Source: Candidatus Obscuribacterium magneticum
GTDB taxonomy: Bacteria > Elusimicrobiota > Elusimicrobia > F11
Direction of reading: 5' to 3'
Assembly: GCA_020523905.1 (NCBI GenBank)
Contig: JAJAPZ010000001.1
Coordinates: 62,001-126,000 of the forward strand
Length of the DNA stretch: 64,000 nt
A program made the translations under genes and the position numbers. The notes below the pieces were generated by a model. It was not told where the DNA came from, did no database searches, and saw only the letters and a program-made list of their open reading frames with translations. This document shows, piece by piece, positions 12,001 to 61,800 of this stretch (the stretch's first letter is position 1; each line of letters starts with the position of its first letter).

Positions 12001-15000
12001 CATCGTTTCGAAGAGAAAGTCCGCCGTGTCTTCTGTCGACATGAGTCCGGGCAGGTAAGTGGCAAGTCTAAAAATAGGGATGAGGATGTTGGAAAGAGTG
12101 GCCTCGTCTCGATCGTAGGATCGAAGACCTTCGATAAAAACCCGGACGATCGCCGGTGAACTTAGGTTCGTTGTCGGACTTTCCATGGCGGTGTGAAGCG
12201 CTCGTTCATACGTGAGAGAGATCTTCTCGGCCGCCGGCTGGGTCGACGCGAGGCGAAGGGCCAACGTCAGTATCGTGGCTGCCGTGCTGCGAGGTTTTCC
12301 AAGATCTTTAATTCGTTCGGCGACATTTCTGTCGCCTGAAGAGTCGTCCCTGATCGCTTGAGCTTCCGTTTCAAAGGGGCGGATGAGGAAAAATAGCTGC
12401 CCCAGTCGGCTTGAATCATCCAAAACTGTTTTTAGGTGTTCGACCACCCCCGGATAGCCTTCCATCCACAGTTGAACCGTTTTTCTCGATGCAAGCAACT
12501 TTTCGGCTTCCGGTGACAAATCGCGAGCCGTGTTTGACATTTCGTCAAAAGAAACCCCCGTCAGGTAATCCGCCAGGAGCCTTTGGAGGGTGGCGAGGGG
12601 AAGGAGGCCGTCGCCCCAGCGTGGAATGTTCCTTGAATTAAACAGGAAAAGGCGGGAGATGACCTGGATGTCAAAGGATTCGAATATTTGCCGGCGCCGC
12701 GCCCATCGGAAAAAAGCCGGCGTGAGGGCCTTCTCGTCCCATCCGGCTTTTTGAAGCATCGCCTGCCACCGGCTCGCCAGAGGGGCGTTGTCGCGGATGG
12801 TTTTTCTGATCTTTGAATAGGCCCCGTGCGTCTTATTATTTTTATAGCGGAAGAGCACCTCTTTGATTTTTTCGGCGCCGTATTCTCCGTTGGTGGTTTG
12901 GCTGACCTGACTGTAATCCGGCTGGAGGGAGGACGCCAAAGCCAGGGCGACCGCTTTTTCATCGGGGGTGAGAATGTCTGTTTGGTGAGTGGCGTCCCCG
13001 AGAAGTTGCCGGGCCTCATCCCGTTGGGCGGGATCGGCGAGAAGAGATTCCATGAGATAGGAAAACATGAATCGATCAAGGAGACCGGTCAGGACTTGAG
13101 ATCTTTTACGGGTTTCTTTGTAGGCCTCTTCAAGCCCGAGTTTACGATTGGCCGTTTGCGAAAGATATTCGAGGACATTCATGGGACGCCCTTCCGGGGA
13201 CACCGCGGGGAGGCCCCAGAGAACGTCGCGGATCGGTTTTAAGGAGTCGTCGGCCCACGGTTGTTGGGTTTGTGAACTGAAGGGGACGGCGTCTTTCCGG
13301 ACCGCTTGGATGAGGATGATGGCCAAGCGGACGGGGATGATCCTGAGGAACAAAAGAGCCAGCGTCGTCGAAATCCATTTTTTCTTTTCGGCCGGAGATG
13401 TCGGCATATGGGCCCGATACCAATCTTCCAAGGTCGGTTTCTCTTTCCCCCCCTCGTTTCCTTGGAGGTATATGGCTGTTAAAAATGGTGTTGAGGCCAG
13501 GGCCATCGTCGGGTCGATGATGAGGGCAAAAATCAGAAAGACCGCGGCGATGAAAAAGGCGAAGAGACCTTGGGCTTTGCGCATGTGGATCCAGGCCCGA
13601 GAGAATTTCCTGTTCCACTGCCGGGCAAATTCGATAAATGCCTTGGGGTCGGGATCCCCTTTCCACCGGATTATTTGGCGGGTGTCATAAAGCAGGTGGA
13701 TTGCGAGCGCGAAATAGAGTGGGATTTGGAAAGGAATGATCTGGGCCAGGTTGATAACGGGAACGAGAAGGTAGACCGAGAACACAAGGGCGTGGGTCAA
13801 GGCGTTCGGGAGCGGCGAGCCGCGGATGCGGTTGTCAGGGTGGTTTTCTTCGAGTTTGAGATGGAACCAGGTTAATATGGTCAACCAAGAACCGGCCAAC
13901 GCGTAGCTGACAATTCCAGTAGACCCCAAGTCGAACGGAATTCCTTGCGAGAAAATAAAAGTCGCAAGGGTTCCGAAATGGAGAAGCCCAATGGCCAATC
14001 CGCCTTCGGCGAGAGCCGAGGCCAGTCCAATCATCAGTGTCCAGAATGGATGAGCGTTGACCCAGGCACGGCGGTATTTGGTGAGCCAGAGAAAACCGAG
14101 CGAGTTTGGAAAACGGAATTCATCGGCCACCGCCGAAGCTTCGATAACGCTCAAACCGCCCGCCCCCTGGATTTTTTGAACGGTGTATTCGGGCTTAGAT
14201 GTTGAGGCCCGGAGTGTTTCCACTATTGTATTGAGTGACTCTAATTTCCCTTCCAGTTCACCGCGCTCGTTGAGGAGTTTGCGCTGGCCATCAGAAATCT
14301 TCATGGTATAGCCTTCGGACGTCCAAATCCTTCGATCGATGGGATCCGTTTGGAATTTATTCTCGCTAAGCGCTGTTTGAATCCGTGTTCGTTCCTCCTC
14401 AAAAGTACTTGCCATGATTTCACTTGGCGAATTTAGTGGTTGCCGAATCAGTTTTTGGTGCAGTTGATAAGCTTCATCAAAATTCAAAGACAAGGCATAT
14501 CGTTTCACGCCTCTCATGAATTGCGCCCATTTGTTACCAATCGACCAAAGTTCAGCCAGAGAGGGGTTTGCCCCCGGTTTACTCCCCAGGCTGTTGACCA
14601 GAGAGTAGTTCATACCCAACCATCCTTGTTCAGCCTTATAAGATTTTAGAAGCTCATCGGGAGTTTGTAACGTTGGATCCACGCCGAGGTAACGGATGGG
14701 TTTTAATGCGAGCTCAATGAGCGTGCCTGGATTGCGGTTACCCCACCGTTTGAAGTCTTTTACAAATTCCCGAGATTCGACCGTTTTGTAGAGGACATAA
14801 GCAATGATTCGTCGTTGGGTCAGGAGGTAGGAATCTCCAAAGGTTACATCTAGCCCCTGTCCCCATATTAACTCGAAGTGTATTTTGGCGTAATAGATCA
14901 GTTCATTTTTCAAGGCTTCGATGACTATTTGAAGTTCCGATTCCATTTGTTTCACTTGAGCTATTTTTTTGGCCGGTGAAGCCGTGGCGACGGAAGGCAG

Positions 15001-18000
15001 CGCCGCCGAGGCCGTCAGATAGGCAAGAAGTTTAAGGAGTTCGCGGCGGGTGGGGCCGTGCCTTCTTCGCTCGATGTGCTGGGCGCCGAAGGCGATGACT
15101 CGTTGAACGAGGTGTTCGACCGGTGAGGGATGAGCCGCGACCAAATCCGGGACTTGTTGTTCATTCAGCCGATATAGCTGAACAAGCACACGGAATAATT
15201 CCGATCTATTTTCAGAGGAAGCAGTGGACTGGGATTCAAGCCGGCGGACGAATTTTTGGCCGATTTCGAACGGAAGAACCAGGCGGCCGCGCCTTCTTTC
15301 CTGGAGGACTTCCGAGGCGACAATTTCCGCCTGCCTTCGGATGAAAGCGATCATTTCCAGCTCATTCCTTTGTTCAGCAAGGGAGAAAGGGGGGTGGGTG
15401 ATGTCGCCTTGTCCCGTGTGGATCGGCGTTGGTATGGAAGGTTTCTCTTGAGTTTTCCTTTGACGCCCTCTACTTATGGTTTTTGCAGGTAACGCGGATT
15501 CCCTTCGCCCCCAGATGCGATTCCATAACCAGGTGACGAAGAAAAATACCATGAAAACCGGCGCTCCGGTGCCGGGTGAAGCGAAGGTGTCCTCTTTTAC
15601 GTCTACATAGAGGAAAGATCCCCATTTGGATAAGAGAGTCATGAGGTCGTTTTGCGGTAATGTGATCTTTTGGGTGCGGATCCAGGAAAGGCGGACTCCC
15701 TTTTGGCCTTTCACTTTGGCTTCTCCCTTGAGAACATCCCTTTGTGATCGATTTATCGTTATTGTTCCGGGTTTCTTTGCCGGATCTATTTCGGGTGACG
15801 GTTTTTCTGTCACTGAAGCCGGATGGGCAAATTTCCACTCTCTGACATGGCCTCGGGGGCGTAGTCCATGGATTCTCGCGAGTACCAATACGACATATTC
15901 AGTAACCCCAAACCGTTTGCCCATTTCTTTCAAAGAAGCCTCCAAAACAGGGAGCCGCTTAATTTTTTCACACATTTTTTTAAATTGTTTAAGATATTCG
16001 CTGAGTTCTCTCTCGGCTTTTGTAAGTGGTCTTTTGGGCAGGGACCTGTGGGAGCGGCGTTTGTTAATAGCGTCAAGGTCTAATTCTTCTCCGTGCGATT
16101 CACTATCGGAGATGTCCGTCTCTCCGTTTGTTTCGTCGGAGGACTGCCCCCCGTGGTCAGGTTCACCGTCAATTGAAAGGAAGGCGTCCGGGAGGCTGGG
16201 CCAAATGGCGTGTAGAAGAAAAATAAAAACATTTAGTCCGGTGTGAATGAGAACGTTCATGCCGTAGGAATTAAGAATGAGATAAGTGAGGGTGAGAACG
16301 GAGGTGCCCAGGGCCTGGATGAAGAGACGAAGGAAGATCTCCCTGCTTACGTGCGATGGGAGGAGGTGTTGGCTTGGCGAGAGAGCTAAGTCTGGCGGCC
16401 CGCGGGCCGCGCGCTCGCGTGCCACTTGAAGAGATTTCGCGATGGTGCCGGGTAGGTGCAACGCGAAGAACAGCAAGGCGACAACCCAAGAGTTTGATTC
16501 CCAGACACCCATCATCAGCGATCGGAACACGGCTTCTTCCCAGAGAGGTGAGATGACAAAGGCCGTCCCGTAAATCACCAGGCCGGCGGCCCAGCCAGTC
16601 AATTTGAAATGCTTCACTACCCATTCCGCCGCCTGCTGAAAAATGGACAAAGTTGGTTGATGAATTGGACTGTCGATTTTGTTTCCTTCGTCGTTGAATC
16701 GGAACTCGCGTGCTACGGCATCGGCTTCAGCCGGGGTGAGCCCGCCTTGACGGAAAACGTCGATCATTTGAGCGCGGGGGCCGTGCTGATAGCGCCAGGC
16801 ATCGAATGTCGTGTTGACGGCAAAGGCGGAAGCTCTTCTCATGTCTAAGCCCGCCCGCCAAAACGCCACGGCCAGGACTTCCTGAAAATAAGCGAATCGA
16901 GGATCCAGGAGAACCCGGTTTCCGGATGTGAAATCATCGTCATAAACGAAGGAGAAAGCCTGCGGCTTAACGTGGAGCTTCCGACTCGCCGCGTCTTCGA
17001 ATGAGGCGCGCCCCTCTTGAATTTCCCAGTCCAAAGCGTATTGAAGCAGAAAGGAGATGGGGTCCGAGAGTTGTCTTTCTTGAAGGACTCGCGCCACCAG
17101 GTGGTGATCGAACAAATCTTTTTGGATGCCGGCAACAAGCTCTTTTTCCATCGCCGCCGGACGGGACGCGTGATGAAAGCTGGTGCGGACATGCCGCAGG
17201 TGCCTTTTTAAAGGTTCTTCACAGGCGTTCATGACATTGTCGTATTCCCGGGTCGTCCAGCCTTGAGATTGGAGATAGCGAAACATTTCCGCATAACCGA
17301 CGCTTTCCGCGAGGAAGTGGATGGCGATAATGGAGCGCACAAGATCGGGGGTGGTGCCAGAAAACTGGGGAGCCTCTTTCAGTTCCCGGATGGATCGCAT
17401 GATGAGGCGAATGGGTTGGGGGTCTCGGACGTGAACATTTTCCTTGACCAGAAGGCCTCGGAGATAGTCCCGGGTGCGTCGAGCGAGCGGGGATTGGGAG
17501 GCCTTGTATTTGTTCATCAGCGTGATGAAGGAATGAATGAGTTCCATATTGAAGACCAAATACGGCTGACCGTTCTCATCGACCCCGGTGCCGGCCGTTC
17601 CCCCGACGTCGGAAACGGCGGAGGCCGGATGGGTGGCCAAATTTGCTTTAAATTTTCCAACCATAGCTTCAACGGAGGCGGCGTATTCATAACCTCCGCT
17701 CTTTATTTCACCCACCAGTTCTTCCATGACAGCGGCGACTTCGAGCCAGTGCGGAGGGAAAGGTTCGGAAGGCGAGGCTTCGTGCTTCTGAGCCATAAGA
17801 ATGAGGCCATTCTCAAGAATCCCCGAAGGGGTCGCTCCCCCTCCCTTCACCAAAGCATGAGCAAGGCGGGAAGGCATGGTTATCCATGGCCAGAATTTGG
17901 TGTTAAAAAGAATGAGGAGTGAAACCAGGAGGAGAATCCAGGGGAAGGGCCCGATGTTTATGTTTTTATTCAAGAGATCGCCGATGATGGCGCCCGATGA

Positions 18001-35016: not shown

Positions 35017-35055
35017 ATTTTAACTCCCCGGTTTGTTTGAAATTCCGCTTGTTTT

Positions 35056-35149: not shown

Positions 35150-35162
35150 ACAAGAGGAAAGG

Positions 35163-35715: not shown

Positions 35716-35719
35716 CATT

Positions 35720-36625: not shown

Positions 36626-36709
36626 CCGAAGGAAGGGGGGCGAATTGACCCTTCGCCTCCGCTAATTTTATTTCTAAACAAGCGGTCGCAATAGGTAGAA
36701 TTAGCCACC

Positions 36710-37054: not shown

Positions 37055-37341
37055 GGAATGGATAAGAAAGGCTGAACACGACTTTACCGCCGCCCAAACC
37101 CGCCTTTTCAAGCGGGATCGAAACGCACCAAGTGGATGGTGTTCCCATCAAGGTTTATTCGCTGGAAAAAACCGCGGCCGACTGCTTTAAGTTTCGAAAC
37201 AAAGTCGGCCTTAATGTCGCCATCGAAGCTCTCAAGTTCTGCCGGGAGAGAAGAGGGTTCACCGCGGATACACTCCTTAAATACGCCCGAATCTGCCGGG
37301 TAGAAAAAATCATGAGACCCTATCTTGAAGCAATCCTATGA
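37035..37341 (+). pseudogene. Recombined HEPN/AbiEi remnant
   Basis: From ATG 37035 the sequence encodes the HEPN N-terminus MSSRIVKEWIRKAEHDFTAAQT. At AACCC (37097-37101) it switches to the C-terminal third of an AbiEi gene (PAFSSGIETHQVDGVPIKVY... to the stop at 37341) in a different frame. The HEPN frame then runs out at 37190. The homologous HEPN at 31533 and AbiEi at 32195 both carry AACCC at the corresponding point, so a deletion through a 5-bp microhomology between adjacent HEPN and AbiEi genes explains the structure. The AbiEi part could give a 69-residue peptide from ATG 37132, but it lacks the helix-turn-helix. The following zeta-type gene starts 19 bp later. Confidence 0.8.
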
Positions 37342-37360
37342 AGAAACATAGGAGGATTTA

Positions 37361-40776: not shown

Positions 40777-40857
40777 ATGGACGCCCCTAAAACAATCAAA
40801 AAGGGACTCTCCCTTTTTCTTCTCATCACATTTTTCTGCACCAATTGCGCGTGGGCC
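40777..40857 (+). other. Signal peptide of the giant protein
   Basis: Residues 1-27: a lysine-containing n-region (KTIKK), a hydrophobic core (LSLFLLITFF) and an A-W-A cleavage box before H28. It directs the N-terminal domain across the cytoplasmic membrane. Confidence 0.75.
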
Positions 40858-43800
40858 CATAAACCCCAGGTCTCCATCTGGACCGAGCGGCGAAAGGCGC
40901 TCGAGCACTCATCCGATCAAAATGGCCGCTCCCTCCAACTGGCCCAAATGCCGGCGGTCTTAAACACCCCTTCGCCCGCTTCCCTCCTCAACCGATTGAC
41001 CCCCGACATGACGGGGAAAGCAATGTCGGCGATAACTCAGAGAAGGACTGAAAAATGGATTTCGAATGACGCCCCAAGAAACCTGAAAGATCTTTTGGCC
41101 ATCCTACCTCAAACCTATGGAAACATCCGCAAAGTGACACGGCCTTCCTCCAACGCTTCAACGGGCCCAAGCCGCATTCTCCTCCACATTCAAGACGTCC
41201 ACATGAACGAAGAAGCGCAAACGAACATCGGCAACACGCTTCGGGAGCTCATAGATCGGGGACGCATCGATCTCGTGGCGTTGGAAGGCGCCTTTAATCC
41301 CATCGACCTCTCCGCCTTCCGCGCATTCCCGGACAAAGAGACGATCCGGAAAGTCGCCGACTATCTCTTGAAAGAAAACGAAATCTCAGGCCCCATCCAC
41401 ACCGCCTTCACCCATGAGAACTCCTTTACGCCGTTCGTTGGCGTGGACGATCGGCCCCATTACACCGCCAACGTCAAAGCCGTCCAAGAATCATGGCGAA
41501 TGCGAAAGGGACTTAAAGGACAATTGGAAGAAATAGATAAGGCCTTGGACAAAAAGAAGGCGAACGCCTTCAACAAATCACTGGCTGATTTTGATTCGAA
41601 AATCCAGGCCTATCGCAAGGGTTCACTGAGTCTAGGTGAGTACGTAAAAATCTTGGCCACACGTCATTCCGGCGAAAGCTTGACATGGATTAATGCGCAA
41701 TTGTTTATGGAGGCGTTGTCCCTCGAGTCGTCCCTTGACTTCACCCGGGTCGAGGCCGAGCGGAGCTTCCTCATTAAGGAACTGGTCTCAAAATTGTCCG
41801 AAGCCCAAATTCAATCCTTAACGGAATTAACCGCTTCTTTTCGCCTGGGGCAGATGAACCACGCCGACTTTTACCAAGCCCTAAAAGAGCTGTGCGAGAA
41901 ATCCGGCATCGGCATGTCGAAATACAAAGCGATGTCCTCCTATCTTCAATACGTCCTTCTGGCCGACAGTATTGATGGGGACAAACTGTTGGCTGACCTC
42001 AAGAAGATGGAAGAGGCGGCCTACGCCCGATTGGCCCGAACAGAGGAAGAAAAATCTCTCATCCAAGAGTCCCGGCATCTTTACCTCACCACCAAACTCA
42101 TCGATTTCGCCCTGACGCCGGAGGAATGGGCAGAATACAAATCGTCATTCCGGCGAACGCCGGAATCCAGAAACAGGTTTAATACCTGGATCCCTGCTTT
42201 CGCAGGGATGACGACTTTCGAATCCTTCTACAAAGAAGCCGAAGCGCGGGACCGCGCTATGACCGAGAACCTTCTCAAAGCCATATCAGAAAAAAACGCA
42301 AACGTGGCCGTCCTTGTCACGGGAGGCTTTCACTCTCAGGGGATGAACCGCCTCCTTCAAGACGCGGGGCTTACTACCATCACCTTCGCTCCCAAGATCA
42401 CCAAAATTGAGTCCGAAAGCGGCTCGCCCGCCTCGCCCGCCGTGGCGGGCGGAGCTTCAGCGAAGGCGGGCTCCGCCACCCTCAGCGTTTTCACCCAGGA
42501 AAAAACGCCGCTCGATAAATTGTTCGAAGGCGAAAAGCTGTTCCTAGCCAATGAACCCCTTTCTAATGAAGCTGAGGGCCGGGCCAAAATTTTATTCGGC
42601 GCCGAGGACTTTCGTTTGGGAATCGGCTTCCCGCGCGTGAGCCCGGCGTGGACGTGGGCGCGGGACAGGTTCAAGTGGGCCGGAAAATACGCCCTCCGGT
42701 TCCTGGGCCGCGAAGCCCACGTGGACGTTCTCTACAACCCCGATTTCACATTTAAGGATGTGGTTCTGGTGAAAGGATCCCTCATCACGGCGGCCCTTTC
42801 ATCGGGCGCCATCATCGGCGATCTCTTGAATAAAAACATAAACATCGGGCCCTTCCCCTGGATTCTCCTCCTGGTTTCACTCCTCATTCTTTTTAACACC
42901 AAATTCTGGCCATGGATAACCATGCCTTCCCGCCTTGCTCATGCTTTGGTGAAGGGAGGGGGAGCGACCCCTTCGGGGATTCTTGAGAATGGCCTCATTC
43001 TTATGGCTCAGAAGCACGAAGCCTCGCCTTCCGAACCTTTCCCTCCGCACTGGCTCGAAGTCGCCGCTGTCATGGAAGAACTGGTGGGTGAAATAAAGAG
43101 CGGAGGTTATGAATACGCCGCCTCCGTTGAAGCTATGGTTGGAAAATTTAAAGCAAATTTGGCCACCCATCCGGCCTCCGCCGTTTCCGACGTCGGGGGA
43201 ACGGCCGGCACCGGGGTCGATGAGAACGGTCAGCCGTATTTGGTCTTCAATATGGAACTCATTCATTCCTTCATCACGCTGATGAACAAATACAAGGCCT
43301 CCCAATCCCCGCTCGCTCGACGCACCCGGGACTATCTCCGAGGCCTTCTGGTCAAGGAAAATGTTCACGTCCGAGACCCCCAACCCATTCGCCTCATCAT
43401 GCGATCCATCCGGGAACTGAAAGAGGCTCCCCAGTTTTCTGGCACCACCCCCGATCTTGTGCGCTCCATTATCGCCATCCACTTCCTCGCGGAAAGCGTC
43501 GGTTATGCGGAAATGTTTCGCTATCTCCAATCTCAAGGCTGGACGACCCGGGAATACGACAATGTCATGAACGCCTGTGAAGAACCTTTAAAAAGGCACC
43601 TGCGGCATGTCCGCACCAGCTTTCATCACGCGTCCCGTCCGGCGGCGATGGAAAAAGAGCTTGTTGCCGGCATCCAAAAAGATTTGTTCGATCACCACCT
43701 GGTGGCGCGAGTCCTTCAAGAAAGACAACTCTCGGACCCCATCTCCTTTCTGCTTCAATACGCTTTGGACTGGGAAATTCAAGAGGGGCGCGCCTCATTC

Positions 43801-46800
43801 GAAGACGCGGCGAGTCGGAAGCTCCACGTTAAGCCGCAGGCTTTCTCCTTCGTTTATGACGATGATTTCACATCCGGAAACCGGGTTCTCCTGGATCCTC
43901 GATTCGCTTATTTTCAGGAAGTCCTGGCCGTGGCGTTTTGGCGGGCGGGCTTAGACATGAGAAGAGCTTCCGCCTTTGCCGTCAACACGACATTCGATGC
44001 CTGGCGCTATCAGCACGGCCCCCGCGCTCAAATGATCGACGTTTTCCGTCAAGGCGGGCTCACCCCGGCTGAAGCCGATGCCGTAGCACGCGAGTTCCGA
44101 TTCAACGACGAAGGAAACAAAATCGACAGTCCAATTCATCAACCAACTTTGTCCATTTTTCAGCAGGCGGCGGAATGGGTAGTGAAGCATTTCAAATTGA
44201 CTGGCTGGGCCGCCGGCCTGGTGATTTACGGGACGGCCTTTGTCATCTCACCTCTCTGGGAAGAAGCCGTGTTCCGATCGCTGATGATGGGTGTCTGGGA
44301 ATCAAACTCTTGGGTTGTCGCCTTGCTGTTCTTCGCGTTGCACCTACCCGGCACCATCGCGAAATCTCTTCAAGTGGCACGCGAGCGCGCGGCCCGCGGG
44401 CCGCCAGACTTAGCTCTCTCGCCAAGCCAACACCTCCTCCCATCGCACGTAAGCAGGGAGATCTTCCTTCGTCTCTTCATCCAGGCCCTGGGCACCTCCG
44501 TTCTCACCCTCACTTATCTCATTCTTAATTCCTACGGCATGAACGTTCTCATTCACACCGGACTAAATGTTTTTATTTTTCTTCTACACGCCATTTGGCC
44601 CAGCCTCCCGGACGCCTTCCTTTCAATTGACGGTGAACCTGACCACGGGGGGCAGTCCTCCGACGAAACAAACGGAGAGACGGACATCTCCGATAGTGAA
44701 TCGCACGGAGAAGAATTAGACCTTGACGCTATTAACAAACGCCGCTCCCACAGGTCCCTGCCCAAAAGACCACTTACAAAAGCCGAGAGAGAACTCAGCG
44801 AATATCTTAAACAATTTAAAAAAATGTGTGAAAAAATTAAGCGGCTCCCTGTTTTGGAGGCTTCTTTGAAAGAAATGGGCAAACGGTTTGGGGTTACTGA
44901 ATATGTCGTATTGGTACTCGCGAGAATCCATGGACTACGCCCCCGAGGCCATGTCAGAGAGTGGAAATTTGCCCATCCGGCTTCAGTGACAGAAAAACCG
45001 TCACCCGAAATAGATCCGGCAAAGAAACCCGGAACAATAACGATAAATCGATCACAAAGGGATGTTCTCAAGGGAGAAGCCAAAGTGAAAGGCCAAAAGG
45101 GAGTCCGCCTTTCCTGGATCCGCACCCAAAAGATCACATTACCGCAAAACGACCTCATGACTCTCTTATCCAAATGGGGATCTTTCCTCTATGTAGACGT
45201 AAAAGAGGACACCTTCGCTTCACCCGGCACCGGAGCGCCGGTTTTCATGGTATTTTTCTTCGTCACCTGGTTATGGAATCGCATCTGGGGGCGAAGGGAA
45301 TCCGCGTTACCTGCAAAAACCATAAGTAGAGGGCGTCAAAGGAAAACTCAAGAGAAACCTTCCATACCAACGCCGATCCACACGGGACAAGGCGACATCA
45401 CCCACCCCCCTTTCTCCCTTGCTGAACAAAGGAATGAGCTGGAAATGATCGCTTTCATCCGAAGGCAGGCGGAAATTGTCGCCTCGGAAGTCCTCCAGGA
45501 AAGAAGGCGCGGCCGCCTGGTTCTTCCGTTCGAAATCGGCCAAAAATTCGTCCGCCGGCTTGAATCCCAGTCCACTGCTTCCTCTGAAAATAGATCGGAA
45601 TTATTCCGTGTGCTTGTTCAGCTATATCGGCTGAATGAACAACAAGTCCCGGATTTGGTCGCGGCTCATCCCTCACCGGTCGAACACCTCGTTCAACGAG
45701 TCATCGCCTTCGGCGCCCAGCACATCGAGCGAAGAAGGCACGGCCCCACCCGCCGCGAACTCCTTAAACTTCTTGCCTATCTGACGGCCTCGGCGGCGCT
45801 GCCTTCCGTCGCCACGGCTTCACCGGCCAAAAAAATAGCTCAAGTGAAACAAATGGAATCGGAACTTCAAATAGTCATCGAAGCCTTGAAAAATGAACTG
45901 ATCTATTACGCCAAAATACACTTCGAGTTAATATGGGGACAGGGGCTAGATGTAACCTTTGGAGATTCCTACCTCCTGACCCAACGACGAATCATTGCTT
46001 ATGTCCTCTACAAAACGGTCGAATCTCGGGAATTTGTAAAAGACTTCAAACGGTGGGGTAACCGCAATCCAGGCACGCTCATTGAGCTCGCATTAAAACC
46101 CATCCGTTACCTCGGCGTGGATCCAACGTTACAAACTCCCGATGAGCTTCTAAAATCTTATAAGGCTGAACAAGGATGGTTGGGTATGAACTACTCTCTG
46201 GTCAACAGCCTGGGGAGTAAACCGGGGGCAAACCCCTCTCTGGCTGAACTTTGGTCGATTGGTAACAAATGGGCGCAATTCATGAGAGGCGTGAAACGAT
46301 ATGCCTTGTCTTTGAATTTTGATGAAGCTTATCAACTGCACCAAAAACTGATTCGGCAACCACTAAATTCGCCAAGTGAAATCATGGCAAGTACTTTTGA
46401 GGAGGAACGAACACGGATTCAAACAGCGCTTAGCGAGAATAAATTCCAAACGGATCCCATCGATCGAAGGATTTGGACGTCCGAAGGCTATACCATGAAG
46501 ATTTCTGATGGCCAGCGCAAACTCCTCAACGAGCGCGGTGAACTGGAAGGGAAATTAGAGTCACTCAATACAATAGTGGAAACACTCCGGGCCTCAACAT
46601 CTAAGCCCGAATACACCGTTCAAAAAATCCAGGGGGCGGGCGGTTTGAGCGTTATCGAAGCTTCGGCGGTGGCCGATGAATTCCGTTTTCCAAACTCGCT
46701 CGGTTTTCTCTGGCTCACCAAATACCGCCGTGCCTGGGTCAACGCTCATCCATTCTGGACACTGATGATTGGACTGGCCTCGGCTCTCGCCGAAGGCGGA

Positions 46801-49800
46801 TTGGCCATTGGGCTTCTCCATTTCGGAACCCTTGCGACTTTTATTTTCTCGCAAGGAATTCCGTTCGACTTGGGGTCTACTGGAATTGTCAGCTACGCGT
46901 TGGCCGGTTCTTGGTTGACCATATTAACCTGGTTCCATCTCAAACTCGAAGAAAACCACCCTGACAACCGCATCCGCGGCTCGCCGCTCCCGAACGCCTT
47001 GACCCACGCCCTTGTGTTCTCGGTCTACCTTCTCGTTCCCGTTATCAACCTGGCCCAGATCATTCCTTTCCAAATCCCACTCTATTTCGCGCTCGCAATC
47101 CACCTGCTTTATGACACCCGCCAAATAATCCGGTGGAAAGGGGATCCCGACCCCAAGGCATTTATCGAATTTGCCCGGCAGTGGAACAGGAAATTCTCTC
47201 GGGCCTGGATCCACATGCGCAAAGCCCAAGGTCTCTTCGCCTTTTTCATCGCCGCGGTCTTTCTGATTTTTGCCCTCATCATCGACCCGACGATGGCCCT
47301 GGCCTCAACACCATTTTTAACAGCCATATACCTCCAAGGAAACGAGGGGGGGAAAGAGAAACCGACCTTGGAAGATTGGTATCGGGCCCATATGCCGACA
47401 TCTCCGGCCGAAAAGAAAAAATGGATTTCGACGACGCTGGCTCTTTTGTTCCTCAGGATCATCCCCGTCCGCTTGGCCATCATCCTCATCCAAGCGGTCC
47501 GGAAAGACGCCGTCCCCTTCAGTTCACAAACCCAACAACCGTGGGCCGACGACTCCTTAAAACCGATCCGCGACGTTCTCTGGGGCCTCCCCGCGGTGTC
47601 CCCGGAAGGGCGTCCCATGAATGTCCTCGAATATCTTTCGCAAACGGCCAATCGTAAACTCGGGCTTGAAGAGGCCTACAAAGAAACCCGTAAAAGATCT
47701 CAAGTCCTGACCGGTCTCCTTGATCGATTCATGTTTTCCTATCTCATGGAATCTCTTCTCGCCGATCCCGCCCAACGGGATGAGGCCCGGCAACTTCTCG
47801 GGGACGCCACTCACCAAACAGACATTCTCACCCCCGATGAAAAAGCGGTCGCCCTGGCTTTGGCGTCCTCCCTCCAGCCGGATTACAGTCAGGTCAGCCA
47901 AACCACCAACGGAGAATACGGCGCCGAAAAAATCAAAGAGGTGCTCTTCCGCTATAAAAATAATAAGACGCACGGGGCCTATTCAAAGATCAGAAAAACC
48001 ATCCGCGACAACGCCCCTCTGGCGAGCCGGTGGCAGGCGATGCTTCAAAAAGCCGGATGGGACGAGAAGGCCCTCACGCCGGCTTTTTTCCGATGGGCGC
48101 GGCGCCGGCAAATATTCGAATCCTTTGACATCCAGGTCATCTCCCGCCTTTTCCTGTTTAATTCAAGGAACATTCCACGCTGGGGCGACGGCCTCCTTCC
48201 CCTCGCCACCCTCCAAAGGCTCCTGGCGGATTACCTGACGGGGGTTTCTTTTGACGAAATGTCAAACACGGCTCGCGATTTGTCACCGGAAGCCGAAAAG
48301 TTGCTTGCATCGAGAAAAACGGTTCAACTGTGGATGGAAGGCTATCCGGGGGTGGTCGAACACCTAAAAACAGTTTTGGATGATTCAAGCCGACTGGGGC
48401 AGCTATTTTTCCTCATCCGCCCCTTTGAAACGGAAGCTCAAGCGATCAGGGACGACTCTTCAGGCGACAGAAATGTCGCCGAACGAATTAAAGATCTTGG
48501 AAAACCTCGCAGCACGGCAGCCACGATACTGACGTTGGCCCTTCGCCTCGCGTCGACCCAGCCGGCGGCCGAGAAGATCTCTCTCACGTATGAACGAGCG
48601 CTTCACACCGCCATGGAAAGTCCGACAACGAACCTAAGTTCACCGGCGATCGTCCGGGTTTTTATCGAAGGTCTTCGATCCTACGATCGAGACGAGGCCA
48701 CTCTTTCCAACATCCTCATCCCTATTTTTAGACTTGCCACTTACCTGCCCGGACTCATGTCGACAGAAGACACGGCGGACTTTCTCTTCGAAACGATGAT
48801 CCGATGCGAACCCCACACGACGGATGCTTTGATGAAGAGTCTGGCTCAAGCCACGCAGGCTGAGATCGGGCAGCCGCTCCTTTCCACCCTTTATAACAAC
48901 ATGTTGAAGCGGGTCTACGCCCCCATCCGGTTGCTGGCAAAAAAGGAATCCCGTCGATTGATCGGCCGTAAGATGCCTGCCCTCGATACGGCAGAACGGT
49001 TCGACATTTTAAAAGCCCGGCGGCTCCAGGATGAGCATTTCCGGCGTCTTGCCCAGCGGGATGGGATCGTCCTTGAATTTCTGGGAAGCGAATCGCAACC
49101 CGGCCTGTGGCCCGAAGAAAAGGTGATGCATCATATCGCCAAACGCTACGCTGAATATCTCCAAAGCGACCGGCGCCCGTACGGGATCCCCATGGAGAAC
49201 TTGATGGATGCCGCCCGTGATGCCCTTCTCAAGTTGGGTTACAACTTTGATCCGCCGGAGTCGATGCGGATACCTTTTGAATCCCTGAAAGACAAGACAG
49301 AAGGAGAACGTATCGCCGCCACGTTGGAAGAAAGACAAAAAACGCTTGAGAGCGAAATTGAAATCCTGGCCGCCAAGTCGGAGGAAACGAAAGCCCAACT
49401 CGAAATCCTCGGAATGGGGTCACTCGCCGCGGCGAGTGACCCCTTCCAACAAAAACGCCTTCAATTTGAGCTTGCCGGTCTCGCGAAAGGGTCGACCATT
49501 CGCCGACAGGAACAGGGATATAATCGAGCCCTTCTTGAAATCATAGGGAATTACCGAAAAGGGGACGTCGCCCGGGCAGCGGAGATCATCAAAACAGCGG
49601 AAAAGATTGCAAAGGATTACCGATCCGCAAAATTGACGTCCCTGTTTGCGAGATACCTCGACACGCAAATCAAAACGCTCTGGAAACAACACCGGGGCCA
49701 GAAACGCACCATGGAAAGACGTGTGAAGTCTCTGGATGCGCCCATGGAGAATGCGAAGGACTCGGATCTCCTTTTTGGGAAAGCCTTCGCCGATCCGCAG

Positions 49801-52800
49801 TCCAAGGCCTCTCTTGAAATGTTCTTTTCACAGGAACCCGAAGTTCAGGCGCGCGTATTGGATCAAATGGCCGACATTTTGGATCCCGTGGAAAGACGGA
49901 TCGTGCAACTGAGGTTCGGATTGGACCCCTTTTACCGGGGGTTTGAGCTCGAATACGACGACATCGCCACCATCCTCGCTTTTGAAAATCCCGCTGGAAC
50001 GGCCCTGAGTTGTCAAGGGGTGGAAATGAGATTCAACAAGACCGTCATGCCCAAGTTCACCCACGCGGTGATGGCGGCGTCGAAAGCCAAGGCGGGAAGG
50101 GCCTGGGACAAATTCATAGAAGGGTTATGGAGCCAAAAACCGGTGGAACCGGAGCCCTTCGTCACCTTCGTCCAAAAAACCGAGATCCTTCTCACGATCG
50201 GTCAACACCTCACCCTTCCAGTGCTACCGGTCTGGGAGGGAAAAATTATCCATATTCTTGTCGACGAATGGAGCCCCGCCATTCAACGGCCCAAATCCCC
50301 GTCGTCCCGCTACCTGCCGCCGGATCCCCGGTCCGCCGACACCGCCATGCCCTATGATGTTTTCCTCAACGTCCACGTCGTCATCCGGGTGCCGAAAAAA
50401 GGATTCACGCGACATCCCTCGGCCATCTTCTACGTCCAATTCCAAAAGTCGGCCGATGGAAAAATCCGCCAGGTGCAGACCGACAACCTGCTGGAGCCGG
50501 AGGAGTCCCCGCCAACGGTGTCCGCTCGGCCAGCCCCTTCGAGCAAAGCCAGCCAAACCTTTGTAGTTGCATTTCTCAGCGTTTTCATTGCCGCGCAGGG
50601 GATTCACACTTCCCTCTCTCTCCTTCTGGCTTTCGCGGTCATCACCTTTTCCCTTTGTATCCGCGCCTTTTCATGGCACATCGCGGAATTGATTCTGCAC
50701 GGGAAGATTTTCCCCGTGCTATCGAAAGAACCGGGATTACTCTATGTCGACACCAAATCAAACCAAATCCACTTCAATTTTAAGATCTTTAATCTCACCC
50801 TGGCGCGGTTAATAAGAAGCGGCGGAAGAGAGCGAATATGGGGAGTTGGGTTGGCTGCCGTGGGCTATCTTTTCACTTTGGCAGGGCTCGTTTTCTCCTT
50901 CCATCATGAATTGATTCATAAGATAAAGGGGTTCAAATCGGAATTGGCAGCTTACGGATTGGAGCTGCTGATACTCTTTACAGCCATCGCCTTGACTTAT
51001 AACGCCGGTATACCCTGGTATGTCCCTTGGGGCGTTCTCTTAAGCTTCAATGCCTTATCCGCCAGCCTTTCTATCAAGGACATCACGAAATCGCTGGGCA
51101 TCAGCGAAACCGCCGCCACTGAATTGACGGGTCGCCAGAAGAGAGCGCAACAACGCCGGTTTGAGAGCCGATTAACAACAATCGTCGGTCTCGCACTCAT
51201 CATCGGTTTACTGGCGGCGGGCATCCTTATAAACATTCATATTCTTCCAAATCAAAAATTCATCAACGTGGGAGAGGGCCGTCTCCTCCTCTTTGTGGTG
51301 GGATACACCCTTCTTCTATTTCTCCTTAAATGGATTCTTACTAAGACACGTCAACCAGGCCGACCCGACCTGGAGCGTGACATGTTCGTGAACTTCTTTT
51401 CCTGGATTCCTTCCCTGGCGGATAGTTCTCTCAACGCTTGGAATCTTCGCGCTGAGAAAGAAATCTTAAAATCCTTGGTGTCTCGCGGATTTCAAAAGAC
51501 GCACTTATTGAAGAATCAAGGTCTGGCGAATCGACCAACCGCGGATCTTAAAAGTGACATTCGTGACTTCCGAATCCGATCCGCAGCCGATTTAAGGCTG
51601 TTCCTCATTTTAGCCGGTCTGCTCGTGAAGGGTGAGCAAAAGAGAAGAGAGCGCAAATCCATCGCTCCAACCACGAAAGGGAAAATTGACCGTTTGATTG
51701 TCACCCTCTTGTCAGGAGAGATCTCGATTAAAAAAGCGACGGCGGATTTCCTCGATCTCTTTCAACAAGAGCTGGGGATCGCTCGCCTGAAAAGTTGGCG
51801 AGACATTTTCAAGGAGCCCATCCAAAATCTTCTCGAAGACTATAGCCGTAGTTTCCATGCGCGGTTCTCCGCCCACTTGCCTTCCAGTAACTCCACAGTT
51901 CCTCCCCGCTCAAGGGGGGAGGTCGCCACAGGCGACTCGCCGTGGCGAGACAGGAGGGGGGCTTCCGTCCTAACCCCTCCCCTTTCCCCTCCCCACCCTG
52001 GGAGGGAAATCATTTTTGACCGAACTCCACTAATCAAAAAAGTGATTTACGGGGTCCTCAGCTTTGACACGACGAGGTTCATCTTCTCCTATGGATTCTG
52101 GCTTGTTATGGGGCTTTTGGCGTGGGGACCGACCGGGGCGGTTCTCTGTTTCCTCCTCATTCGGTATCTGGTTGATCCCGTTTATAAAGGTCTCCTGGCA
52201 AATTTGAAAGGATCCATCCAGGGAGAAAAGGGGATTATTCCTTTGAGCCCGCTTCCCTACGGCTTGAATAAAACTCTTCCCCAAACCAATTGGGCTGAAA
52301 TCCAGAGGGCGTACGATGAGTTGATCTCCCTCAGCTTCAAAGAAGAGAGGAAGAACCCATGGTTCCGGCTGATCCTCTTGGAAAAGGTGCTGAGGAAAAT
52401 CCCCGGCCAAGAGGATTTGGTCGCTCTGGTCACCGCCCTCAAAACGGAAGTGGCCAGCCGCGCGGCGCGTTCCACACGGAGAGAAACCTGGGATTCCCTC
52501 ATGAAAACCGCTCGCGACCTCGGCTGGGATTTATCCCAACCCGAGATTCGCTTTCTCCTAAGAGCTCTCGAGCTGCCTCGGCGGCGCCCCTCAAGATGGT
52601 CCATGAATCCTCAGCAAATGAGGCTCCAGGTTCAAAGCAAAGGCCCCATGTCAATTTTTTTACAGATCCTCGCCGACTCTCTACGCCGGGCGCCCTTGTT
52701 CACCCTCCGCTGTGTCGTCAGCATCCCCACGAGTGTTCTTCGAGCTTTGTGCCGATGGTTCGGGCTTGACTTGTGCGATCGCCTATTATTTGCATTGAAC

Positions 52801-55800
52801 AACAAATGGGGGACCCTCCTGGGATTTGCCGCCAAAACCCATCCTTCGCAACGGGTGGACTCGCGCGAGATGACCCAAAGGCCCCCCTTCCGAGACCCTT
52901 CAGAAAATGAATTCGGCAAAGGGGTTCTTATAAATCAACTTGAGCAGCTTAACCAGCCGGGGCTTAAGCCCCTCATTGAATTCCTCCGCGTGCGCGTCAC
53001 CGTTAAACTGGAACCCTTTATCGACAAAAGCTGGCTGCCTTGGCAAATGCGTTTGATCCATTGGCGGCAAATCGCCCCCCTTCCTGATGGGCGGTATGAG
53101 TTCGATCTCGAAAACAACACGCTTCTGCTCAGCTCACGAATGCCTGACGATCTAAACCTCCTGGCGGCGCTGAAGCTTCTCTCACTCGCTTTCCGGCACG
53201 AGGTTATCCGGGGAGAAAAACAAAACCTGCATCTGGCTGAACCCCGAATATTTCCTTTTATCTGGGCGACCTACCGAACCCTCATTAAAAAACGCTGGGC
53301 CGAAGCTGTAACTTTCATTCAAAGTTTTTGGGGGGGAAATAAAAAAGCCTCCCGTGCTGAGGATTCGTTCAAAGACCGCGAACCCATCTTAGGTCTTCTC
53401 TATTTAATCTCCGTGTTTCCTCACACGCTGTGGGGGCGCGTGTATTCGTCTCCCCAAAAACCCGGCGTCCTTTACTCGTATCGCCCCCCGCCGACACTCT
53501 ATCCTTTCGTCAAGGCGCGGGAAAACTTCATGGTCGCCCTTTATCTTATTCTCAATTGGATATTTAACGGTTTTATCGGGAGGACCAATCAAAAAGAGAT
53601 CGGGGGCCTTAAACCTCGTTCCCACAGCCGGGTGGTGATCCTGTGGGGACTGCTTCGGCCCGTTTTGTCCCATCTTGGACTGGCCATCGCCTTCGCCAGT
53701 TTCTTCATTGCCATCTTCGCCGGCCTGGTTCTTCACCTGGACCTCAGCTTCTTAAATGCGTGGGCGATCTGGTTCAAAGAGGTGTTGAGCTTTGTCAATT
53801 TTCTCTATTTGGGAGATTTGGTGAATCTGGTCTGGGGCGTTTGTCAATGGGCTTATGAGGGGTTGCATTATATCATGGCCATTCCACTGCATCATCTGAA
53901 GGAATTCTTCGTTTGGATATGGGCTTTTCTGGCGCCGATACGAATCTTTTTCGTGCAAACGTTTATCCCGCTCTTTTATCAATATATTATTCCCACATTT
54001 CTTTTCCTTTGGGGCCTGCTGTACGGTTATCTGGTTTACAAAGCCCGCATTGGTAAGTTCCTGATCCAAAACGCCTCCAATATCGCTGCCGCTCCGTTTG
54101 TCAGTGTCTATGCCTTGTCCACGAGAGCTCTCTATCTTGTCAGGGACGTTCCCGTTAATGAAGCTTGGATTGAAAAGGTGTCAGACGGGATCCGATGTGT
54201 TTTCCATTGGACCCGGTTCTTCTGGATCCCGCTATTCATTCTATTGTATGGATTTCTCCATCTCACAGGACTTGCCTGTTTGATCGCCATTCTCGGACTC
54301 ATCTCTTACCCCTTCCTGGATTTAAGAACGGTCATCGTCGTCATCCAAAGCCTGGGCATCCCTTTTAATCCCATTATGTACGTCGGAATCACAGCGGTGA
54401 TGATCGGTCTTCCCTATTCATGGTTTTACTGGACATTTGAAAAATTCATCAAGGTGGCATTCAGGGAAGTGACTCCCCGAAAAATCCGGAATACTTTTGC
54501 GGCCTGGGCCTCCCTTCTACTTATCTTGACGGTCGCCTTCCCCCTGGGAGTGCGTTACGTTCTTAAGCAAAACCCCTTTCACTCCGCCGCCGTCACACGG
54601 CACAACGAATGGGCCGCGGTCTCCCTTTGGCGGCAGGCCGAACTCTGGACACAAACGCCCCTCCTAAAAGCCGCCTTGGACGAAACGTTATCGGAAATGA
54701 AAAAGGAGGCGTCGAAGGAATTGGCTCCTGAAGAAGCGCGGGCGCTCGAGCTCCAGATAAAAGAATTTCAAGAAAAATTATCCGGCGGGCAGGTGGCCGT
54801 CCTTCGGGATCGGCTTTTGGGCTCGCCCTTTAAAGGCCTGGAGGTCATCGCCGATCCCCATTCCGGATACCCCATCATCATTCCGTCCCAGGTCTCCTCC
54901 AAACATCAAACGCACTCCGAGAAACTCACCCTCCATAGCAGCCTCGCCCTCCGGCGGGCGGTGACGCCGGTGTGGCTTAAAGCACACAAAGGGGAGATCT
55001 TCCGCGCTTTGGAAAACAAAAACCCGGCCCTCTATCGAAACGCCGTTTTCTTCGAATACTTTTTCCAACTCGTGGGAGACGAACGAAAATCCCTCTATCA
55101 AGCCTTGACGCCCGAAGAGTGGAAAACAATCTTAATCCACATGATGGACACGATTGAAGACCCCATTGTTTACGGATCCTTCAGCGCCAATTACCGCCAG
55201 CAAACCCTGGCCGCCGACGTTTTAATCAACTTCTTCACCGATTCCCATGACGGAGAATATCAGCAGCTATCTCGGGAGTTGGGTCCCCGTCTTTCGGACA
55301 TGGATGTTTCCAACGCCATCGCTGACATCCGCATCAAAATCAACCGCCTCAAGAAAAAAATCGGTACCGGTTCTCAAGGGGCCACCTCTTCTTCCGGGGC
55401 ACCAGTCTTCATGGTATTTTTATTCGTCAACTGGTTATGGAATCTCATTTGGGGGAGAAGGAAACCCGCGTCATCTTCGGCGCGGGTTGTTTCTCCAGAA
55501 CTCAAAGCTGGAGACCGCGAGTTCACCAATGAAGACTGGGAACGGGGGCGGACGTTGGTTGAAGTCATTCTTCCCGGCCTCTGGTATGGAAACATTCCTG
55601 GAAACGTGGAGGAATTCATTCATGACATGCGACACTTATGCATTTACGCATTTAGAGATTCCGCGGTTACCTTTTCGGGATTTAAGTACGATCCGCTTTA
55701 CCACCGTTTTTTAGGCGACGATGTTTTGCTTGTGTGCGCGCGGATGCTTGAATCTTTCCGTTCTCTCGCCCAGGCGATGTCCGATTTGCCGCCGGCCGAT

Positions 55801-58800
55801 CGATACGATGAAAAGCTGATGGCATTGAAAAAACCGAGAACATTTGATTTTACAAATTATGGATGGATTCTCATGGATAGGGTCCTCCAATACCGTGACA
55901 AAGGCCAGGATGTCGGCGCCATTCTCCGCTACCTCCACAGCGTTTCGCCAACCTTCATTGAAGTTGCCGAAGAGCTCATGCCCATACTTGAGCGCATCAT
56001 CGATTTTGTGGCATCCCGCCCCTCTGAACTCATCGGAAGTTTATCCGACTGTATGAGTCGACTCGGGAGCCAAACGTTTAGGGTGAAAAAATTAGCTGCT
56101 GAATCTGATCAAATCCCCAAAAATTTGGGGCTGGAAATTGCCAACGCTAAATCTATTCTCCTAGCCCTGGACAGCCAATTAGGGTCCGCCCGCGCGCGGT
56201 CGCATGAAAATCGCCGGGTCAGTATCGAACCCATAAATGCCATAGCTCGATATTTAGATGACGACGTAGGCCTCAAGGAAATCAGGTTGTGGGTTGATCT
56301 ATTGTTAAAGGGCGACCCCCAATTATTAAAAATGCTACGGGAGACAAAACTTTCGGAGCGGATCGAATCATTTCTTCATGCGCTCTCCCAGCACCGGGAC
56401 CAGTATCCCTTCCCGGGCGGCGATATCGACAGGGCCTTCAAACGCATCCTGGCCTCCCGAGGGATTGACACCGAAGGGGGAGAAAGAAGCGGTACCGGTT
56501 CTCTAGGGGACAGGGTTAAGAAGCAGGTGCAAACGCCAGCGGAGAATGGGGCACTCACCGAAGAGAGTGATCCCTCCTCCATGCTTGTCGCCAACCGCAC
56601 ACGGGCGGAGGCGAAACGGCGTGGATGGACAAATAAATTTTGGACGGAAGTTCTCTTCGCTCCTGATTACGAATTCCTAACCACCTTCCGGCCCGATGTG
56701 CTTATTCCCGATCACCCCGGGCCGTGGCGGAAACACGCGCTGCGCATCGTCGGGCTTTCCGCCATCCAAATTTTTGTCCTCAGCGTCCCCATCCTCATCA
56801 CTTGGGGAACGGGGCTCTTATTCACCGGAAACATCACGGAGATTTTGATTTACGCCATCGGTTATTTCGCGATCGGGGTGGCCTTTGGCCTGGCCCTCAT
56901 CAATCCCTGGCTTCAACTGCGCGGATGGCAGAAGGCGCTGCTCTTTTCGGTTTATCTCCCCAACGTCCTCGGGCATGGGATCTACAACTTCTTTATCCAC
57001 CCGGCGCCGCTGACGAGTGAGGAAATCAGGGGGTTAAGAGACAGTGCCGATGTCGAGAGACACGGCGGGAATTCCACGGAACATTCCTCCAAACAGCGGG
57101 CGAAATCCATTGTCGAACGGACATCGGGAATTCCAGGACGGAAATCCCAAGCACAGGAACGGGAAATTGAAGGGATCGTTGAGTATCTCGTCGAAAAGAA
57201 ATTACGAAAGCACGGACCGCTTCTCATTGCGGTGGATGGAGATCGACCTTCGTTCAATTCCTTTTTCATTGAGGCGTTGGTTGAAAAATTGACCCCACAG
57301 CACAGGGCGTTTGTCATCCACGGACCTCAGCCCATGATCACCCTGCAGGAAAACCCTGAATATTCGGGGAGGGCCCCCTGGAGCGAAACGGCGGAAAAAA
57401 TCCGATACGAGATCGACTCTTGTAACGAAGATTTTATTTTTGTCGAAGGCCCCCGCGTTTTTAATATCTGTCGAGAGACATCCTTCCGGACCGATGACTT
57501 CGACGCGAAAATCCTCGTTCGAGCCGATGACCGCGCCAACGAACTTTTAATTCGTTTGGCTGGAATTAAACGACCCGCAACTTTAGAAGCTATCACACCC
57601 AATATATATCCCGAAGACATCGTGCCCCGTTATGATATCGCGATGAGCGCGAGCGTCGTATTCGGCGACCAGCAGGTTCTGGATTATCTTCCGCTCCAAC
57701 ACGGCCAAAGCATTTGGATCAATCCTTCGATCGGACGAAAACGCCGGGATCTTGAGATCGGCGGGAAAGTGTTTCAAGGTTGCCACCTTGTTTTTCATCA
57801 GGTTCCAGGCGTCTCTGGAGGATTGGCGGTTTCCGACGATTTCGACGAAAATCGCATTCAAGCGATCGAGGCCTTGGGCGAACGGGGGGTTCCTTTTAAC
57901 GGCGAATGCAAAGTCTCCGTCGTCCCCAACGAAGATATTCATATCGCCTTATTCAACGACCCTGCCCGCGTGCAGGGCAACGCCGTCTTTTTTGAACATG
58001 TAAACAGCCAGTTTCGCAGCATCAACCAAAGCGTTCGCTTCTATTTAGTCAATGAAGGTGATTTGGAGTTAATGGAAAGTTCAGACGGTGAGAAACACAC
58101 CGTTTTAAAGCGGGCCCTCGCGATTCAAGGGGGAAAATTGTTTCTTGATGTGTTCGAAAGGCCGCTGTTTTTGCACGCCATCGTGGAGCCGTCCGACTTC
58201 CTGCGCCTTCAAATCGAAAAGACGGACACGCTAATCGTTCCTTCAAGAAAAACACTTGATATGAGCCGGGACCGCCAACGGCAAATGCAACTCTTGTCAG
58301 CGTACGGTTTGCCGGCGGGCGGGGAGCTTAAGCCTCCGACCGTAGATTTAAACGGAGCGAAGGTCCCTTATTTCGTTGAACAACCCATAAAAATTGACAG
58401 TCCGGAATTTCAAAACGCACACGAAATCCGCCTTATCGTCGTGAAAAAGTTTGGATCGAAATCATCCTCATCTTTATCGATTCAATCCGAAATTGCATCG
58501 GTGCCTTTGATGCGGGCGGATGACCCCCCGTTGCGGGCTCGTCTATTTCTGGATGATTATTTAATGGCCCTGCGTGTCGCCCCCCTCCGCCCTCTAACCG
58601 CGGAAGAACGGAAACGGTTTCAGATGAAGCTGCGGTCGCTCGCCATTGAAGCGGCTGATGCGCTGGTCAATCGGGAAGGAATGGAGACGGACGTCTTGGC
58701 TGTTGATTTGGGATTGGGCGAACCCTCCGATAAGGATGGGCTCCCCCGGGTATTCATCCGGGGCGTATCAACAATTTTTGATGTCGATGAGACCATCGAA

Positions 58801-61800
58801 TCGATCTGCGCGGCCCCGCCGCGTCACAAGGAAAAGGAAAGGCATTACCGTTATTTCAAAAAATGTTTCCAGTATATCGTCGCGGCCGCACGAAAATGGT
58901 TCAGAGATCGGCCTGGATCAGAAGCATATGAAGGACCGCTGGCCTGGACAGGACTACCGAAGTCTGACCAGGAGGCTTTGCAATCTCTCTGGTCCGGTTT
59001 GAGCTGGACGGCCGAAGGGCGGCTCGAACTTTCCTGCCGCAAGAACATGGCTCGGTTACAGGAGCTATTCTTCACTCACCGGGGTTTCAACCGCGATTTC
59101 CAATCCATCGCCGCCGGGACATTCAACGAATTGGAAAAGCGGGCGAACGAAGCCTTTGAAAAAATAAGAGCGTTGATGAACGCTTCCGAACTGGAGACTT
59201 CTCAGCGTATGGCGCATAACGCCCTCGATAATCTTCTCAAGCATGGAGAAGGGAAGGGCGCCTTTTTGATGCGTTTAAAGTTTATGGATGAAAAACACGC
59301 AACTTTCACTTTCATCCTGCTTGATCGCGGAGCCGGGTTTGTATCGGAGGATGGCTTGCACGTTCCCATCCATGAAGCTGTCAAACATGGTGTTTCATTT
59401 CGAAACCTCGCTCAGGGGAAAGGCGTCGGCCTTTATGAAATATTTTCCCGAGCAGACGATATGGGCTTGTTAACCGTCGATCGATGCGAAGCCGTCCCGC
59501 AAGCTTATTTTTGGAAGAAAGGGGATCCCGAAGAGGTCCCTTGGACATCGGCTCCTGTTCCAAGCGGAACCCTTCTCGCGTTTCGAAAGAGGATCACGCA
59601 CCAATTGCCGGCCCACCAGCTGCAGAACGCCTATCCCGTTTCTGAAAATCCTTTAGGTTGGCTGCAGGAGTGCATGTTCCATCTAAAGGAAGGAGGGCGA
59701 ATCCTGGGAGAGGATTCCCGCTGGTCCGGGGTGGTGAAAAAAATCGAAGGCTCTCGCAGTCAAATATTATCGCTGTTAGACATCAGTAAAATCGAATTGA
59801 GCGACCACCGGGAAGTGCCCGCTCGCAATATCGAGCGCAATTTCGACACTGTTTATCAAATTCAGGCCGGGCTGGAGCGGCTGATCATGGATGTGGAATC
59901 CAATCATCATTTAACCGACACAAATAAATCCGCATTGGAATCACTTCATGCCGCTGGTAAATTGTTGGAACAATTCGTGGATTACGTCCGAACCGCCAGA
60001 TCCCGTCCGGGCCAATTCGAATTGGAATTTGAACCCTCTCCCGTCCTTGGGCCTTATAATGAAGCGATTTTTACCCAGTTCATTCGGGACACACGCGTCG
60101 TCGAAAAAACTCTTAGACGCCTCTACGGTCAACACGCTCGAGCCTTGGCCATCAAAAAGGTCAGCATCGCTTATTATCACTCGGGAAGTAACCGGGTCGC
60201 TTACGCCTGGCACGTCACCTTTCGGAATCCCTCATTTCCACCGATGAACCTCATTATGAAAGCGAGTTTGCGGAACGGTGAATCCGAGATCATTCATCAA
60301 ACTCAAGCGCGTCTTGCAAAATTTCTTCTGGGAAATCCCAATGATTTTATCGGGGTATTGCCGGACGGCAGGGTCGTCGTCACCGGGCCCTTATTTACAG
60401 GACCGAATTTTCAGGAGATTTTGATCGATCATTATTCGGGCCGAAATCGTCTGCATACCACTTCAGGCCAGCTCTTCGCTATTCAAACCGAAATCGTCCG
60501 AGTCTGCGTGGAAACATGGATGAAGTTGGGGGGGCATTTTATTTCGGACCCCAATCCATCTCAATTCGTCGTGAAGATCACCGATGGCAAGAGCCCCAAT
60601 ATTCGGGTTTGGCTCATTGACAAGGGTGGACTCTCCTCAACGGGAAACCCCGGAATCGACAATCTCGTTCTGGTGCCTCGGGGCGAGTCCGAACTCGCCA
60701 TAGCATTGGAAAAAAGCGAAGAAACGCTGATCGACGATTACAACGGGCTCGCCAATGAGGGGCGTATCAGAGAATTTATAAACGATGCGATCGAGCGTTT
60801 TGAACCAAAAAGGTTGATATTCCGCCTCATCGGCAATATGAACCTCGACGACCTGCCTCCATCGCATCAATTTGAATATTCGTTGGATCCAAAAGCTCTC
60901 GTTTTGGGCGTTCGTAAAGCTTTGGGGAAAGACGGAGCTTGCAGTTTTTGGCGCAATTACCTTCTTACCCGAGTTGATTTCGATGCATTCCGCTGCGAAA
61001 AAGTCGATTTGATTGATGCTGAAGTCAATCGTTTCCTCGCCGACCCGATTGGATATTGGGAGGAAGGAAAGGCAATGGGGTCAGGCTCAACTCTTGTGGC
61101 CAACCGCACACGTGCCGTAGCGGCAAGGCGGGGGTGGACAAATAGATTCTGGACCGAGGTTCTCTTCGCTCCGGACTACGAATTCGTCACCAGCTTCCGG
61201 CCCGACGTCTTTCTTCCCGATCACCCCGGGCCGTGGTGGAAACATGCCCTGCGTACCGTGGGCCTTTCCGCTATTCACGCTTTTGTCCTTAGCGTGCCCG
61301 TCCTCATCACCTGGGGATCGGGACTCCTATTTACCCATAGCTTCGCCGAGATTCTGATTTATGCGCTGGGGTATTCCGCCATTGGGGTGACCTTAGGGAT
61401 GGCCCTCATCAACCCGTGGCTTCAACTGCGCTGGTGGCAGAAGGCGCTTCTCTTTTCCGTTTACCTTCCCAACGTCCTGGGGCACGGCCTCTACAACCTT
61501 ATCTTTCGTCTGGCACCACTCACAGCGGAAGAACCTCGAGGATTAGATCCGGATTCCAAAACCAGAGAAGACCTGGAAGTGGCGCAATTAATCACGAAGG
61601 CGGCAGAAAAAGTGGTGCCGGAAATTATTAGCGCCCAAAATAGCGCCCTGCCGTTAACGGATGAAGAAATAGCCCGAAGCTTTTGGAGCAAGATTCATGC
61701 CACCGTCCGTCCTCAACAAATGGAGTTGGTGCGGTGCGTCCTGGGATCCTTATTGGCGGCAACCGGTAAGGGCCTTCCTCTCGTGACTTCATCCGCGAGG

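Follow-up and report, generated by a model that had tools for sequence, protein, structure and literature searches.

The window, by which is meant the whole stretch of 64,000 nucleotides that was analysed, contains a giant open reading frame on the forward strand (40777..63999, +). The frame begins with the ATG at 40777, the closest in-frame upstream stop being 21 codons away, is still open at the window end and continues past it to position 45726 of contig G000:C49. On the contig a stop is reached after 12,098 codons, 7,741 of which are in the window, and the encoded protein is therefore 12,098 aa long. An alternative genetic code is unneeded, the frame being open under table 11, and its absence from the first list of ORFs is explained solely by its extending past the window end. 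The protein starts with a putative Sec signal peptide read from the translation (KK, GLSLFLLITFFC, AWA; 40777..40857, +), followed by a ChaN/TIKI/EreA-like N-terminal module (residues 100-600; 41074..42576, +) and two hydrophobic helices revealed by hydropathy (residues 662-706; 42760..42894, +). The score of the module against PF04187 was 23.1 bits, below the cut-off of 27.7 bits; D140, H142, E170, R491 and H519 are invariant in 31 aligned sequences. Homologues of the module were found in 69 of 334 genomes of the phylum, mostly at the start of very long ORFs and with several copies per genome, and the module may be a further hydrolase of these giants. The C-terminal third of the giant (L005; G000:C49 45729-58799) contains WD40 repeats, a TrmB-like methyltransferase and a shikimate-dehydrogenase-like part, and residues 2926-3067 (window 49552-49977) matched sigma-70 weakly and well short of the cut-off (TIGR02937, E 0.0027). 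Upstream of the giant, window 32195-37948 is occupied by a run of toxin-antitoxin-like genes of the AbiEi/AbiEii, HipA-like, nucleotidyltransferase and zeta-toxin-like types, with some stretches duplicated.

The region is part of an inverted duplication. Positions 1-30399 and 30400-60798 of the window form a perfect inverted repeat, 100% complementary and with no spacer, and a mirror copy of the giant ORF is present on the reverse strand (1..20022, -). The contig is 184,798 bases long, the coordinates of paired matches sum to 184,799 and one pair of contig stretches beyond the window is also exactly complementary; the palindrome appears to span the full contig. The duplication is probably an assembly fold-back and may alternatively be a hairpin-type replicon end. 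A search of plasmid records gave no match. Because the duplication is perfect, the mirror copy provides no independent evidence. The fold-back duplicates the giant ORF and does not generate it.

Residues 1118-1288 of the giant protein (44128..44640, +) comprise a CPBP/Rce1-like core domain recognized by PF02517, by a homologue in a second genome (G002:C69), by an AF2 model and by a profile match to 4cad. An earlier note on this DNA, in which the span 44176-44613 (residues 1134-1279) was marked, had described EExxxR, FxxxH and HxxxN motifs, intact and in order, within residues 1162-1264, and the motifs were indeed found as EEAVFR from 1162 (E1162, E1163 and R1167; 44260..44277, +), FFALH at 1185-1189 (F1185 and H1189; 44329..44343, +) and HTGLN at 1260-1264 (H1260 and N1264; 44554..44568, +). 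Motif 1 is invariant in the window, G002 and 16 CPBPs from viral contigs; the histidine of motif 2 is likewise invariant and its phenylalanine nearly so, and both residues of motif 3 are invariant. The motifs by themselves are weak evidence in so long a protein, since all three in order and with similar spacing occurred in 5 of 300 whole-protein shuffles (and in 1 of 100,000 domain shuffles). The search with the CPBP profile that the earlier note had asked for yielded 24.3 bits (E 4e-5) with a 1,399-aa piece and 29.1 bits (E 2.1e-6) in a search of the whole genome, both above the curated cut-off of 22.4 bits. Chance is made very unlikely by this score together with the second-genome homologue, in which every catalytic position is retained. 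The domain almost certainly belongs to the CPBP family of intramembrane glutamic endopeptidases related to Rce1, and the view that a CPBP domain with intact motifs is embedded in a giant exported membrane protein is upheld by the Pfam score, the homologue, the AF2 model and the profile match.

Of the 340 genomes of the phylum, one other, G002, yielded a close relative of the domain; this genome belongs to the same family and another genus (contig G002:C69, public as JAKLIS010000160.1, 'Elusimicrobia bacterium isolate RA.bin92'); viral contigs searched with patterns gave no close relative. The G002 contig is a single 1,516-codon frame that runs off either end; it begins within the ChaN-like module and includes the CPBP domain. 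The two domains are 39% identical, with about 61% of the positions changed and every catalytic position kept, a conservation that rests on two sequences since one homologue is known. The most conserved block surrounds motif 1 (13 of 20 columns identical). The PF02517 score of the G002 homologue was 19.8 bits, slightly below the cut-off. The sequences linking the ChaN module to the CPBP domain showed no similarity between the window and G002, and conservation does not extend into the flanks of the domain. Conservation of the motif block combined with the dissimilar inter-module stretch indicates that the catalytic domain was retained while its neighbours were exchanged.

Hydropathy revealed four membrane helices in the domain, the first running into EExxxR, and no further hydrophobic helix in the approximately 430 residues upstream of the four in the window protein. 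In the G002 homologue the first of the four helices is less hydrophobic and, again by hydropathy, no run of three helices lies ahead of the motif. The motifs are placed on separate membrane helices by hydropathy and by the AF2 model (helices H26-57, H61-90, H106-133 and H136-159). Additional helices precede the motif helix in long stand-alone members of the family and in the CPBPs of two giants from other families described below (G173 and G175). Rce1 has eight helices. Six core segments are common to Rce1 and APH-1 (PMC6588880), compared with only four hydrophobic helices here. Since the flanking helices are absent in both genomes, the domain is classed as a reduced CPBP core and not as a complete Rce1-type enzyme; the description of the domain as complete in the earlier note is thus correct for the set of motifs but not for the usual set of helices. 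Both genera have this reduced core, and in both the motifs are intact and motifs 2 and 3 lie the same long distance apart. In a model for myxosortase the substrate enters between TM2 and TM4 (PMC11980579), which together with the six segments shared by Rce1 and APH-1 suggests that a domain consisting of the core only may not work alone.

An AF2 model built from the two close sequences alone was too poor for use (pLDDT 55.7). A second alignment, composed of the two close sequences and the 16 CPBPs from viral contigs, in which the columns E, E, F, R, H, H and N are invariant, gave a fairly confident model with pLDDT of 80.1 and pTM of 0.71. The best BFVD matches to this model were predicted CAAX proteases with probabilities of 1.00, 1.00 and 0.98, and the profile of the alignment matched MmRce1 (4cad) with an E-value of 6e-8; because the sequences added were themselves CPBPs, neither the model nor this profile tests the CPBP assignment independently, as the Pfam score does. 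The profile built from the two close sequences alone aligned the motifs correctly but weakly with those of other CPBPs of the phylum (E 0.007, probability 5%). A Foldseek search of the PDB with the model gave no significant match. The top VIA row was APH-1B with a Z of 5.9, in a range (below 13 for helical bundles) that may reflect a common arrangement; MmRce1 was not among the fold-search rows, an absence that excludes nothing. APH-1 is a known relative of the CPBP family. Overall, the model is only compatible with the motif residues meeting in the membrane.

The domain resembles CPBP/Rce1-like proteins (PF02517; MmRce1, 4cad) in having the same motifs in the same order on hydrophobic helices. 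It differs from the MmRce1 type in having four helices, without the three normally ahead of the motif-1 helix, in the approximately 70 residues that separate motif 2 from motif 3, and in being embedded in a protein of 12,098 aa. The myxosortase MrtX, a sorting protease of the CPBP family, shares the motifs and targets exported proteins bearing a signature, a hydrophobic helix and arginines; unlike the domain described here, it is a separate enzyme with a full set of helices, and its substrate motif contains an invariant cysteine that is absent from the cassettes described below. As in fusions of PrsW with toxins, a membrane peptidase and its presumed cargo occur in one chain, but the PrsW domain is N-terminal, has eight helices and carries other motifs, whereas the peptidase here is internal and reduced. 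Giant genes are a known feature of the Elusimicrobiota (PMC12057145). The giants of Elusimicrobiota and Omnitrophota share with the window ORF great length, export, multiple membrane passes and few annotated domains; the window giant is distinguished from them by the embedded CPBP core, and Pfam found no adhesin or carbohydrate-active domain in it.

A 30-aa cassette, glycine-rich at first, then hydrophobic and then Arg-Arg, starts approximately 217 residues beyond the last motif of the domain (residues 1481-1510; 45217..45306, +). A second copy (residues 4869-4898; 55381-55470) is 70% identical and matches at 70 of 90 nucleotides. Comparison with the MYXO-CTERM signature showed that both cassettes have a hydrophobic stretch and RR and that the signature cysteine is absent. 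The cassette was not found at a convincing score in the other giants of the family and, being present only in the window giant, is rejected as a general cleavage tag of the family. It is very unlikely that the four-helix core would cut both cassettes in cis and convert the giant export product into defined surface units; if true, this would be a bacterial membrane polyprotein equipped with its own intramembrane protease. A membrane repeat of approximately 150 aa occurs three times in the giant (residues 5257-5416, 6771-6923 and 7407-7569; window 56545-57024, 61087-61545 and 62995-63483), the copies being approximately 70-82% identical and each ending in HxxxN, and one distant copy is found in a giant of G001. 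Considered as degenerate CPBPs, the repeats have neither EExxxR nor a Pfam match.

The earlier note had raised the possibility that the giant processes itself after export, in which case the core would cut its carrier in cis at membrane segments and free smaller units. The protease does share its chain with domains that are otherwise separable, and the repeated cassette follows its last motif. Precedents exist as well: the N-terminal PrsW peptidases, which are distantly related to the CPBP family, are proposed to free fused toxin domains (PMC3482391), and a CPBP sortase cleaves tags at the C terminus, internal tags also being known (PMC11980579). Other giants of the Elusimicrobiota embed CPBPs. 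A giant ORF of G173 (L047-L049, G173:C13:1-41282), at least 13,760 codons in one frame, encodes two CPBPs and an M48 peptidase beside GGDEF, sigma-70, methyltransferase, cation efflux, WD40, HEAT and glycosyltransferase domains, while a frame of at least 2,423 codons in G175 (L050:3-7271, -), open at both contig ends, unites MFS, ATP-grasp, CPBP and sigma-70 regions 2 and 4; the GGDEF and sigma-70 domains of such giants would seem to require release. Since the G173 and G175 giants carry full CPBPs, protease capture by giants recurs. Against self-processing, ChaN-type giants reaching 5,396 aa are present in the same-family genomes G001 and G003 (completeness 100% and 99%), neither of which gave a PF02517 match; this indicates that an embedded protease is not a trait of the class and argues against a general role in maturation. 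Most of the related giants lack such a domain. The other ChaN-type ORFs of the window's own genome are also without CPBP, the whole-genome PF02517 search having found only one embedded copy; the other CPBP of that genome is a separate 441-codon frame on the same contig (L001:1198-1932), above the PF02517 cut-off, in which QD replaces EE in motif 1. The M48 peptidases of the family are all stand-alone genes and, as same-family giants lack CPBP, such giants in general need no embedded protease. The restriction of the cassette to one giant and the unconserved flanks of the domain in G002 also stand against cleavage in cis. Self-processing is thus unsupported as a general mechanism and is unlikely for this giant, although a cis role of the protease in its carrier is conceivable given the recurrent capture.

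The domain could instead be used without proteolysis, the CPBP fold serving as a membrane anchor or scaffold as does APH-1 in gamma-secretase. Relatives in PF02517 include non-proteases, and pure scaffolds usually lose some catalytic positions. The missing flanking helices and the presence of the non-proteolytic APH-1 in the superfamily (PMC6588880) would fit a scaffold, which is nevertheless rather improbable given that both genomes keep all the catalytic positions though approximately 61% of positions differ. Giants are mosaics that hold many captured enzyme domains, and a CPBP gene absorbed by gene fusion could persist with no selected role; retention of the reduced core, its long stretch between motifs 2 and 3 and its intact motifs in two genera makes such hitch-hiking very improbable. 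Least credible are chance motifs or an assembly chimaera, a probability close to negligible. A perfectly palindromic contig makes one or more assembly defects probable, and shuffled proteins can contain the motifs, but the Pfam score is over the cut-off, the ChaN module and the CPBP domain share one frame in an independent genome and the domain lies over 13 kb from the centre of the palindrome.

The best explanation is that the CPBP domain, reduced to its four motif-bearing helices, is one module of a giant multi-pass protein of mosaic make-up that is exported. By the catalytic roles described for CPBP motif residues (PMC11980579), E1162 and H1189 would activate water, H1260 and N1264 would form the oxyanion hole, and a peptide bond would be cut at or in the membrane. 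The substrates may be segments of the carrier itself or membrane proteins met by the carrier; the domain, its motifs, their conservation in a second genome, the embedding and the number of helices are observed, and the activity, substrate and topology of the core are those that we infer. The most likely reading, with a probability of about one half, is that the core is active and acts locally, and is not a general maturation enzyme of the giants. The locus offers a defined natural comparison between a giant with an intact protease core and relatives without one, which bears on whether and how the giant proteins of uncultured bacteria mature. If active, the domain would show how small a set of helices can suffice for a CPBP protease.
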